A DNA stretch of 41,689 bases from Actinomycetota bacterium (GTDB lineage: Bacteria; Actinomycetota; Actinomycetes; Nanopelagicales; Nanopelagicaceae): contig VGAJ01000007.1 of the NCBI GenBank assembly GCA_016870795.1, forward strand, positions 1 through 41,689, given 5' to 3'. Under the pieces are notes generated by a model that saw nothing but the letters and a program-made list of their open reading frames with translations, searched no databases and was not told the DNA's origin. The position numbers and the translations under genes were made by a program. Below, in pieces: positions 6,103 through 9,098 of this stretch (within the stretch, counting starts at the first letter, position 1; each line of letters starts with the position of its first letter).

Positions 6103-7245
6103 ATGAGACGCATTCAAGTAATTCTCTTCGCACTCTTAATGGCAGTAGCAACCTTGCCTACCTATCAAGCTCATGGCGCTGAGTGGAGCATGACTGAAGA
6201 TATGGGTCTTCATCTAAAGATGAATATGAATGGTGTCTCCCCGCATGTGGAGAGAATTAATGGCCTAGATCGAATCTGGCGTTCAGATGGACCTACGGGA
6301 ACTGTTGTTAGTGATTGCAATGAAGAAGGGGTTTGCACAAACGTAACAGTGCCAGCTCGACTTGGAAACGATTTCACTGTTGTCACATTTACTAACGGCA
6401 CAAAGCGTGCTTATTTCAAGGAAATTGATGGCGCAAATCAACAGGTTTATTCAGCTCCATGTATCGATGCAGGGTGTGTGAGTATCGGAGCAAGAGTGGC
6501 AACGACAACTGAGATGAGAGTTCCATCTAGCACTAGAGCATGGGGCGTGCCAGATGCAGTATTGCTTCCTGATGGCCGGGTAAGAATCTATATTGTTGAA
6601 AGTCCAGTGGTCGGAAAGTGCACAGAGAAAATTGCTTCTTATATCTCTACTGATGGAATTTCATTTACCAAAGAGCCAGGATGGCGCTTTGAAAATGGTT
6701 ATGTTGATACCGAGATCTTGCGCGCTAAACAAGGTGATTATGTAATGATCATGGCCGATATTGCCTGCACCAGTACCAATCGTCAGATGCTCTTTGTTAG
6801 TACCTCTAAAGATGGTTTGAGTTGGAGCACCCCGCAGATTCTTACCGGACCTGGAGTAGAAGGTTTAGATCCAACTGGATATGAAGTTTCACCAAATGTA
6901 TTTCGAATTTATTACTCACAAGGTGGACCATCGCAGACATATGTTGTTAAGCGCGGTGTCTTGAGATTTACTCCTGCTGCAGTGGTGACACCAACACCAA
7001 CACCAACACCAACACCAACACCAACACCAACGCCAACGCCAACGCCAACACCAACGCCAACACCAACACCAACGCCCACAGAATCAGCCGTTGCTTCTCC
7101 ATCTCCAACTCCCACAATTGCGGCACCAACCCCAACTAAGGCAGCAGTAGCTAAGCAAACTACTATTACTTGTGTTAAAGGTAAGACTGTTAAGAAAGTA
7201 ACCGCGGTCAATCCAAAGTGTCCTAAGGGATTTAAAAAGAGATAG
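6103..7245 (+). CDS. secreted beta-propeller-like protein with Thr-Pro linker and Cys/Lys-rich C-terminal motif
   Basis: A 380-residue exported protein of unknown function. Residues 1-26 form a signal peptide ending A-H-G-A. The body (about 27-290) has repeated blade-like strands: PDAVLLPDGRVRIYIVES, the Asp-box-like S-T-D-G-I-S-F and S-K-D-G-L-S-W, and four or more Cys that may form disulphides. This suggests a sialidase- or GH43-like propeller, but no catalytic set can be named. Residues 296-326 are pure Thr-Pro repeats, followed by a Pro/Ala/Thr stretch. The last ~27 residues are a compact motif with two Cys and many Lys (ITCVKGKTVKK then PKCPKGFKKR). No ribosome site precedes ATG 6103. 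TAATTT at 6090-6095 ends seven bases before it, so the mRNA may be leaderless. It is a single-gene unit between two terminators/leaders. Confidence 0.65.
   Translation: MRRIQVILFALLMAVATLPTYQAHGAEWSMTEDMGLHLKMNMNGVSPHVERINGLDRIWRSDGPTGTVVSDCNEEGVCTNVTVPARLGNDFTVVTFTNGTKRAYFKEIDGANQQVYSAPCIDAGCVSIGARVATTTEMRVPSSTRAWGVPDAVLLPDGRVRIYIVESPVVGKCTEKIASYISTDGISFTKEPGWRFENGYVDTEILRAKQGDYVMIMADIACTSTNRQMLFVSTSKDGLSWSTPQILTGPGVEGLDPTGYEVSPNVFRIYYSQGGPSQTYVVKRGVLRFTPAAVVTPTPTPTPTPTPTPTPTPTPTPTPTPTPTPTESAVASPSPTPTIAAPTPTKAAVAKQTTITCVKGKTVKKVTAVNPKCPKGFKKR
6988..7080 (+). repeat. six-base tandem repeat (ACACCA / ACGCCA) encoding Thr-Pro
   Basis: About 15.5 copies of a six-base unit encode 31 alternating Thr and Pro residues. 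Units alternate between ACA and ACG for Thr, while CCA for Pro is nearly constant. The rigid, extended linker separates the propeller-like domain from the C-terminal motif. Such repeats are prone to slippage, so copy number may vary between strains. Confidence 0.9.
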
Positions 7246-7630
7246 TTCTGTAAATCTGCTCTATCCAACTCCTTTACTCTGAGTCAAAAACACATATATA
7301 CCGTGCGTGATCATCAATATTCTTATCAACCATTGTTAATTTCCAAAAAGGTGAGAAGATTGCCTTGCATGAGTTGGTTTGACTCTATTCAAACCTGGTA
7401 TCGGCTACGAATCGACAGAGATTGTCCCTGATGGTGCCTTTCTCTGTTGATCCCCAGATTTGCGAAGATGATTGGCAATATAAGTAGTAGTAAGTTGATC
7501 GAGCTTTCTCTCGATCTGGCCCGTTCGGTGGAGGTGATAGTTCAATCAAGAAAGCTTTTTGCCGCGAGAAAATGTTTTTCTCGCGTGATTTTGACCTAAA
7601 GCCCCCTTTGCTTCTAATATCTGCCCTCTC

Positions 7631-7683
7631 ACCAGAGACTGCTGGTTTCAAATCGCAAGGTTTGAAGTAAATGTCGAAAGACA
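7631..7683 (+). ncRNA. candidate L10-binding element of the rplJ leader
   Basis: Three consecutive small helices: ACCAG/CTGGT (7631-7635 with 7642-7646, loop AGACTG), TTCAAATC/GGTTTGAA (7647-7666) capped by a GCAA tetraloop, and TGTC/GACA (7672-7683) capped by a GAAA tetraloop. Ribosomal L10 leaders of other bacteria contain an AGAC…GC…GGT motif in a kink-turn that binds the L10-L12 complex. The AGACTGCTGGT here resembles it. The exact fold and L10 binding are inferred. Confidence 0.5.
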
Positions 7684-7686
7684 ACC

Positions 7687-7725
7687 CGCATAGGTTCGAG
7701 CGGATACCCCGCGCGTTTCTATGCG
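7687..7725 (+). promoter_or_regulatory. antiterminator helix competing with the rplJ-leader terminator
   Basis: CGCATAG (7687-7693) is perfectly complementary to CTATGCG (7719-7725), and a G-T pair extends it by one. This helix uses bases 7723-7725 of the terminator 3' arm and encloses its 5' arm, so the two structures exclude each other. This is the expected layout of an attenuator switch. Confidence 0.6.
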
Positions 7726-7738
7726 ACGGGGTTTTTTT
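7707..7738 (+). terminator. attenuator terminator upstream of rplJ
   Basis: CCCCG-CGC (7707-7714) pairs with GCG-A-CGGGG (7723-7731), with one bulged A, followed by seven Ts (7732-7738). It lies 60 bases before the rplJ start and inside its leader, so it would cause premature termination rather than end a gene. Confidence 0.8.
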
Positions 7739-7798
7739 ATATTTATCACCCAATCAGTAGGTACTTCTTCTGGGGAATATAAGTAGAAAGGAAGTTAG

Positions 7799-8464
7799 AT
7801 GGCACGCTCTGATAAGGCGGCATCAGTTGCTGAATTGGTTGAAGACTTTAAGTCTGCCGATGCAACTGTTGTTACCGAGTATCGCGGTCTAACCGTGACT
7901 GCAATTAAAGAGCTACGTCGCTCACTTGGTGTTGGCACTAAATATAAAGTTGCTAAAAACACCTTGGTAAAGATTGCTGCAAAAGAGGCTGGAGTAGAGG
8001 TCGCTGACTCACTACTAACTGGCCCAACTGCTGTTGCCTTCGTTCAAGGCGATTCAGTTGCAGCTGCAAAGAGCTTAAAGAATTTCCAGAAGGAAAATCC
8101 ATTCTTAATTATTAAGGGTGGAATCTTTGAAGGAAAAGCAGTAACAACAGCTGAAATCATGAAACTTGCCGATCTTGAATCGCGCGAAGTTCTCTTGGCC
8201 AAGCTTGCTGGCGCTATGAAGGCATCTATGGCAAAAGCCGCTAGAGCATTTGATGCGCTGCGTATTAAGAGAGAAGCTGAATCTGGAGCACCTGCTGCGC
8301 CAGAGCAGGCTGCCCCCGCTGCAGAAGCAGCACCAGTTGTAGAGGCAGCAACTCAGGAAGTTGTAGCCGAAGCAGCGCCAGTTGCAGAAGCAACAAACGA
8401 GGAAGTTGTTGCTCAGGCAGCGCCAGAGACTTCTGCGCCAGTAGAACCAACAGAGAACGCTTAA
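7799..8464 (+). CDS. rplJ: 50S ribosomal protein L10 with long Ala/Glu/Pro C-terminal tail
   Basis: L10 anchors the L7/L12 dimers to the ribosome and, as the L10-L12 complex, represses its own mRNA. The core (residues 1-159) is typical: [30 protein letters not shown] and LTGPTAVAF, then the L12-binding helix around [20 protein letters not shown]. Residues 160-221 are an added low-complexity acidic tail, making the protein 221 residues instead of about 165-175. Within it, two 15-residue units (178-192 and 193-207) are tandem copies. It is followed by rplL after 18 bases. Confidence 0.95.
8330..8419 (+). repeat. tandem 45-bp duplication in the L10 C-terminal tail
   Basis: Two adjacent 45-base units (8330-8374 and 8375-8419) encode [15 protein letters not shown] and [15 protein letters not shown]. 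They are followed by a further Ala-Pro, consistent with an in-frame duplication that has since diverged. Confidence 0.75.
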
Positions 8465-8482: not shown

Positions 8483-8869
8483 ATGGCAAAACTAAGTAGC
8501 ACAGACCTATTAGCTCAATTCAAAGAGATGACTCTTGTTGAGCTCTCAGATTTCGTAAAGGCATTTGAGACTGAATTCGATGTCACTGCCGCAGCGCCAG
8601 TTGCTGTTGCAGCAGCAGGCGGGGCAGCAGGCGGCGGAGAAGCTGCAGCAGCTCAAGATGAGTTCACCGTAGTAATTGAAGATGCCGGCTCACAGAAGAT
8701 TGCGGTTATTAAGGAAGTTCGCGCCCTTAATTCAAGCCTCGGTCTAAAGGAAGCAAAGGATCTTGTCGATTCAGCTCCAGCAACCGTGCTTGAGAAGGCC
8801 GATAAGGCAACAGCTGATAAGGCAAAAGCCGCCCTTGAGGCAGCTGGCGCAAAGGTCAGCATCAAGTAA
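8483..8869 (+). CDS. rplL: 50S ribosomal protein L7/L12
   Basis: The flexible stalk protein that recruits and activates translation GTPases, present as dimers on L10. It is 128 residues. The N-terminal dimerisation helix is followed by the Ala/Gly-rich hinge (about residues 36-54). The globular domain has [20 protein letters not shown] and the LVDSAPATV segment that contacts EF-G and EF-Tu. The ribosome site AAAGGAAA lies before ATG 8483. It is closed by a hairpin at 8885-8907. Confidence 0.97.
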
Positions 8870-8884
8870 GTTCTTTGATAAGCG

Positions 8885-8909
8885 AGCCCCCCTTATACAG
8901 GGGGGCTTT
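8885..8909 (+). terminator. terminator/attenuator between rplL and rpoB
   Basis: AGCCCCCCT (8885-8893) pairs perfectly with AGGGGGGCT (8899-8907) around a five-base loop. The following tract (TTTGCTATTTCTT) is T-rich but interrupted. This is compatible with partial readthrough into rpoBC, as known at the equivalent site of E. coli. Confidence 0.8.
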
Positions 8910-9098
8910 GCTATTTCTTGAGCCTTGCCCCTGATTAGACAGCGGCGTGTCGCAAGGGATATCCTGCCCCCTCGCTCAAAAATCACAGGTCAGGCATATA
9001 GCGGCTGAGGCCTTTCGTTTGCTGTGCGAGCACGAAGAGATTTAAGAGTTATTAAGAAAAACTTAACGAAGTAGTGACTAACTTTGGAAGGAAAACTC

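Follow-up and report, generated by a model that had tools for sequence, protein, structure and literature searches.

A divergent rplJL leader in the class Actinomycetia with the layout of an L10(L12)-responsive transcription attenuator

As far as the literature that we searched shows, it has not been worked out how Actinobacteria keep L10-L12 in balance with rRNA, and the DNA upstream of rplJ in the actinobacterial genome examined here raises the question of how this gene and its neighbor rplL are controlled. The stretch analyzed, hereafter the window, comprises 41,689 nucleotides of contig VGAJ01000007.1, in a genome assembly of 1.05 Mb and 65 contigs. Going by the sequences and the order of its ORFs, we take its genes to be nusG, rplK, rplA, a gene with a Pro-Thr repeat, rplJ, rplL, rpoB and rpoC. 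The repeat gene, located between rplA and rplJ (6103-7245), is an ORF of 380 residues with a signal-like stretch at its N terminus and a long repeat of Pro and Thr. We conclude that the rplJ leader is in all likelihood an L10(L12)-responsive transcription attenuator, on the basis of its layout, its conservation, its covariation and the near-equal energies of its switch.

The following features of the leader and of the two genes downstream are needed for the argument:

7591-7620, forward strand: promoter with a -35 element TTGACC (7591-7596), a spacing of 18 bases and a -10 element TAATAT (7615-7620), from a consensus scan.
7631-7647, forward strand: S1, the 5' strand of the predicted L10(L12) site, from the alignment to the covariance model R1 described below, the same stem in RNAalifold, and pair counts.
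7647-7666, forward strand: hairpin with a GCAA (GNRA) loop (7655-7658) within the L10 site, from folding.
7668-7670, forward strand: unpaired UAA, from the sequence, its role being taken from PMC4538822.
7673-7682, forward strand: short hairpin GUC-GAAA-GAC with a GNRA loop (GAAA, 7676-7679) within the L10 site, from folding.
7683-7695, forward strand: S2, the 3' strand of the predicted L10 site, AACCCGCAUAGGU, which pairs with S1 in the anti-antiterminator, S1-S2 pairs having changed on both sides.
7687-7694, forward strand: 5' arm of the antiterminator, from the blind permutation test and folding; 7688-7694 also belong to the L10 site.
7706-7715, forward strand: 5' arm of the terminator, ACCCCGCGCG, from sequence and folding, and aligned in R1.
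7718-7725, forward strand: S3, the 3' arm of the antiterminator, of which 7722-7725 are common to the 3' arm of the terminator.
7722-7732, forward strand: 3' arm of the terminator, with A7726 bulged, from sequence and folding.
7732-7738, forward strand: T-run of the terminator, seven T, from the sequence.
7799-8464, forward strand: rplJ (L10), an ORF; predicted to be regulated and to supply the effector.
8483-8869, forward strand: an ORF, presumably rplL (L7/L12) from its position and sequence; also predicted to be regulated.

The promoter is of the sigma-70 type, so the transcript is expected to start at about 7626-7628, just 5' of the L10 site; most leaders of the window's family likewise display a TTGAC-type -35 element and a -10 element ending some 8-12 bases before the L10 site. 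From 5' to 3', the leader then carries the L10 site (7631-7695), the 5' arm of the terminator (7706-7715), the 3' arm of the antiterminator (7718-7725), and the 3' arm of the terminator with its T-run (7722-7738), while the ribosome-binding site of rplJ, AGAAAGGAAG, lies at about 7786-7795.

The original prediction held that a terminator and an antiterminator in this leader exclude each other, and this was borne out when the pairs were verified base by base. CGCATAG (7687-7693) pairs with CTATGCG (7719-7725), with one extra wobble pair between G7694 and U7718, and the terminator is formed by A7706-G7715 with U7722-U7732. The bases common to both helices had been given as 7723-7725; these are indeed shared, together with one more, so that the overlap is 7722-7725 and only one of the two helices can form. 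The region 7600-7745 folds with a z-score of -4.0 (200 dinucleotide shuffles). In constrained folding of the transcript 7627-7740, using nearest-neighbor energies that do not model kink-turns, the antiterminator state reached -40.0, the terminator state -40.3 and the L10-site fold -35.3 kcal/mol. As the chain grows, the antiterminator is the best structure while the 3' end lies between 7723 and 7732, and the terminator takes over at 7735. Since the L10-site fold is about 5 kcal/mol costlier, read-through or a mixture of both outcomes would be expected in the absence of protein, and binding must pay for the switch.

Upstream of the terminator, three small helices with GNRA loops (7631-7683) had been proposed to hold the protein. 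Two of them do have such loops, GCAA (7655-7658) and GAAA (7676-7679); the third (7631-7635 with 7642-7646) has the loop AGACUG and is a self-paired form of S1. In place of three separate helices ending at 7683, the L10 site is predicted to be one long interrupted stem with a kink-turn, formed by 7631-7647 and 7683-7695, its 3' strand running as far as 7695. Given 28 leaders from the class's other families, RNAalifold arrived unprompted at the same L10-site stem and at the terminator. S1 reads ACC AGA GAC UGC UGG U (7631-7646), that is, ACC, the three-base kink-turn bulge AGA, G7637 and A7638, then UGC-U-GG-U, and the stretch of S2 that pairs with it is ACCCGCAUAGGU (7684-7695). The lower stem consists of A7631-U7695, C7632-G7694 and C7633-G7693; the kink-turn of the AGA bulge, G7637.A7692, A7638-U7691 and a bulged C7639; and the upper stem of U7640-A7690, G7641-C7689, C7642-G7688, a U.C mismatch, G7644-C7686, G7645-C7685 and U7646-A7684. 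Because S2 doubles as the 5' arm of the antiterminator, the L10 site would act as an anti-antiterminator, and this overlap, which the original prediction had missed, would couple binding to termination.

Several elements of this stem vary or depart from the usual form. The GCAA hairpin (7647-7666) differs in length and sequence among relatives. The UAA is a recognition element for L10(L12)4 in the leaders of Geobacillus and Bacillus and in 23S rRNA (PMC4538822); it is also present in the 23S L10 site of the window's genome, and GAA stands in place of the UAA (7668-7670) in most other families of the class. At position 2n of the kink-turn the usual G is absent, A7638 facing U7691, and the class displays A-U in 40 and A-C in 64 of 104 leaders. 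The leader resembles the genome's own 23S L10 region (ATAGACAACCAGG...GCGTAATAGCTCACTGG, also quoted as ATAGACAACCAGG ... GCGTAATAGCTCACTGGTC), the corresponding leader segments being AGAGACTGCTGG...AGTAAATG. At the 23S loci L311-L322, the L10 region is CTGGTCAAGTG or CTGGTCTAGTG. With the register set by eye, these 23S rRNAs too seem to have A or T in place of the kink-turn G (AAGTG; in one large genome TAGTG), a possible reason why the leader manages without it.

The conservation of the leader was assessed with a covariance model, R1, built from 28 leaders of other families of the class, none of which came from the window's family. In the window, its sole significant match is 7630-7740 (E = 8.7e-9; next match, E = 1.8). 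R1 matches 284 of 296 class genomes at E <= 0.01, nearly always once, and the match ends shortly 5' of rplJ wherever both coordinates are known; homologues of rplJ were found in 103 of 120 relatives. A composite layout score of at least 44 was reached by 135 of 139 class leaders, as against 0/139 shuffled sequences and 0/139 stretches further upstream. This class-wide layout and the R1 match argue for the type of attenuation originally predicted, that of an L10 leader in which L10 would favor termination. In the genome G189:C1, three leader-model matches and several rplJ matches, with one gene split, lie around 7.709-7.711 Mb and 10 kb; the extra matches possibly reflect a duplication or an assembly overlap.

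The suggested comparison with the Rfam L10 leader gave a divided result. RF00557 (L10_leader) aligned at full length to 7614-7746, ahead of rplJ, and placed the kink-turn strands and the terminator correctly, yet it scored 17.8 bits, below the gathering cut-off of 44. It passes this cut-off in 0/120 relatives, and an Rfam scan of the window at gathering score returned a single tRNA and nothing else. RF00557 passes in L170, L172 and L191, from other classes of the phylum, and in Paenibacillus, and R1 also matches L170 and L172. As both models match leaders of sister classes, the family is continuous, with the class Actinomycetia as a divergent branch.

The pairing of S2 with the terminator was evaluated by permutation, the terminator being picked blind, without reference to S1 or S2. 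Among class leaders, the own S2-terminator helix scored 20.09 versus 17.30 for permuted combinations (sd 0.29; 0/5000), and S1-terminator complementarity gave no signal (own 11.99, permuted 12.12). A strand with two pairing partners should change jointly with both of them, and such changes in three segments were observed: at one position of S1/S2/S3, the 104 distinct leaders comprise 67 with C-G-C, 21 with T-A-T and nine with C-G-T (a G-U pair), several of the remaining seven being cases of misplaced S3. A second position behaves likewise (C-G-C, 89; T-A-T, 5). On a tree of L10, C-G-C and T-A-T were exchanged jointly four times, with zero half-way states; the number of switches is approximate, as for many genomes the tree rests on short N-terminal L10 stretches, and the label of L026 derives from a misplaced S1.

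Leaders that keep the terminator while losing the complementarity, which would have spoken against the switch, found no support, the antiterminator core being paired in 95.3% of cells across the 104 distinct leaders. When the core was slid by one base, pairing dropped to 23.5% and 35.4%. Because the antiterminator hardly varies in the 28 leaders from outside the window's family, pair counts for this helix by itself reveal little change on both sides in them; most of the covariation signal is supplied by the window's family and by the permutation test. L054-L057 fit only with a bulge, and L046, L048, L050 and L051 are weak. In the blind search, L083 and L112 had no terminator; L066 and L134 yielded no clean match. 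In the pair counts over the 104 leaders, L008, L024, L025 and a few more had their blind terminator assigned to the wrong place, and this accounts for several entries that looked weak in those counts. In L083, whose leader is 120 bases long, and also in L134, the L10 site is kept and there is no clear terminator; the ribosome-binding site of rplJ in L083 lies inside GGTCCCGCAGGAAAGGGACC, a possible hairpin. This arrangement in L083 suggests a shift to translational control.

These elements can be assembled into a mechanism in which transcription of rplJL very likely terminates in response to L10. The start site, the binding of L10 and the direction of the response are those that we infer, and the protein steps follow B. 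subtilis by analogy. From a start near 7627, the L10 site would be transcribed first. As long as newly made 23S rRNA absorbs the L10-L12, this site would stay empty, and once RNA polymerase has moved past 7725 the antiterminator (7687-7694 with 7718-7725) would open the kink-turn stem, keep 7722-7725 from the terminator and allow rplJL to be transcribed. Excess free L10-L12 would instead occupy the kink-turn stem (7631-7647/7683-7695), so that 7688-7694 are locked; the antiterminator could then not form, the terminator would fold and transcription would stop at the T-run, near 7738.

Other readings of the same DNA have to be weighed against this mechanism. An L10 site by itself would equally be a target of the E. 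coli kind (PMC10931766), and its retention in L083 and L134 without a clear terminator would also fit repression of rplJ translation by L10 as in E. coli, with the terminator hairpin being incidental. However, the ribosome-binding site of rplJ is situated some 50 bases past the terminator, and the hairpin, the T-run and the antiterminator complementarity are retained in nearly all class leaders, so we hold translational repression to be unlikely here. The hairpin could also be a constitutive terminator, there to stop transcripts running on from rplKA and from the repeat gene (6103-7245), and the second helix a product of chance. There are indeed genes on the same strand upstream, and the hairpin alone is a normal intrinsic terminator, but it sits 3' of a conserved promoter, within the leader, and neither the joint change of three segments nor the outcome of the blind permutations is expected of a chance helix, which renders this explanation extremely improbable.

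It is also conceivable that the switch is real and responds mainly to a signal other than L10-L12, such as polymerase speed, NusA/NusG or temperature, the kink-turn being bound by some other kink-turn protein. In B. subtilis, NusA strongly alters how much transcription reads through the leader (PMC4538822), and within the class both the kink-turn and the UAA have undergone changes. Such a signal is nevertheless very unlikely to be the main one, given that in the class the switch lies directly 5' of rplJL, that the leader resembles its own 23S L10 site, and that it is continuous with the leaders L170, L172 and L191 of the same phylum, which pass the Rfam model and two of which are matched by R1. 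A T-box, a riboswitch and a leader-peptide attenuator were also considered and rejected, with no Rfam match and no start codon in 7739-7798.

Attenuation by L10 as proposed here concerns rplJ and rplL. That it might limit rpoBC as well, as had been put forward, appears doubtful because of one further feature:

8884-8908, forward strand: terminator-like hairpin between rplL and rpoB (rpoB ORF from 9084), from a scan of the window.

This hairpin, which separates rplL from rpoB, is strong and GC-rich, and a promoter-like match follows at 8936-8965, so that rpoBC would be affected only via read-through. Most of 30 loci of the family harbor a terminator-like hairpin between rplL and rpoB, with quite different sequences.

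The comparison was extended to leaders from other classes of the phylum (L143-L190) and to named leaders (L191-L268). In the other classes, the terminator is complementary to S1 (own 17.15, permuted 13.98, sd 0.47; 0/5000), and the S2-terminator signal is weaker (48/5000). Examples of S1/terminator pairs are AAGACAGCAGG/CCTGTTGTCTT in L172, CCGCAGACAGC/GCTGTCTGCGG in L145 and TAAGACAGCGGG/TCCGCTGTCTTA in L170. The 12 named Coriobacteriia leaders follow the same S1 trend, albeit weakly (37/3000), and in 28 Firmicutes leaders the S2 side is favored (0/3000). We therefore lean towards the view that, within the phylum, the connection between a single L10 sensor and its terminator has been rewired, running via S2 in Actinomycetia and often via S1 in sister classes such as Coriobacteriia. 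If true, the sensor would have stayed unchanged while the switching helix was built anew.

An L10 site in Actinobacteria had been predicted earlier, going by the passage of a review (PMC10931766) that cites Fu et al. 2013 on leader distribution. In the literature searched, no account of an rplJ attenuator from Actinobacteria came to light, although the incomplete coverage of this search makes it weak evidence. The class of mechanism is already known; this leader keeps its logic but diverges in sequence and kink-turn, and it is nearly universal in a class that the Rfam model fails to cover. Pipelines relying on that model would consequently leave these leaders unnamed. For nearly all of the class, medically and industrially used groups among them, the analysis offers a definite mechanism that can be put to the test.

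As with RF00557 leaders, the element described here stands directly upstream of rplJ (7799), and it does so in relatives too. In E. coli, L10(L12)4 binds a site in the rplJ leader that resembles its 23S site and represses translation (PMC10931766), whereas the layout found here points to transcription termination. The closest parallel is the L10(L12)4-dependent rplJL attenuator of B. subtilis, for which experiments on binding and in vitro transcription, together with mutants, established three overlapping structures (Yakhnin et al. 2015, PMC4538822). Unlike in Bacillus, no leader peptide lies between the terminator and rplJ (no ATG, GTG or TTG in 7739-7798). Position 2n of the kink-turn is U or C and not G, the sequences differ, and the leader, known here from its sequence, goes unrecognized by the Rfam model. 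Both leaders share the same gene pair, a kink-turn (predicted here), the UAA, and the order of L10 site (anti-antiterminator), antiterminator and intrinsic terminator. In both, the antiterminator overlaps the L10 site on one side and the terminator on the other, each structure excluding the next, the overlaps measuring 8 and 5 bases in B. subtilis, and 7 (7688-7694) and 4 (7722-7725) here.
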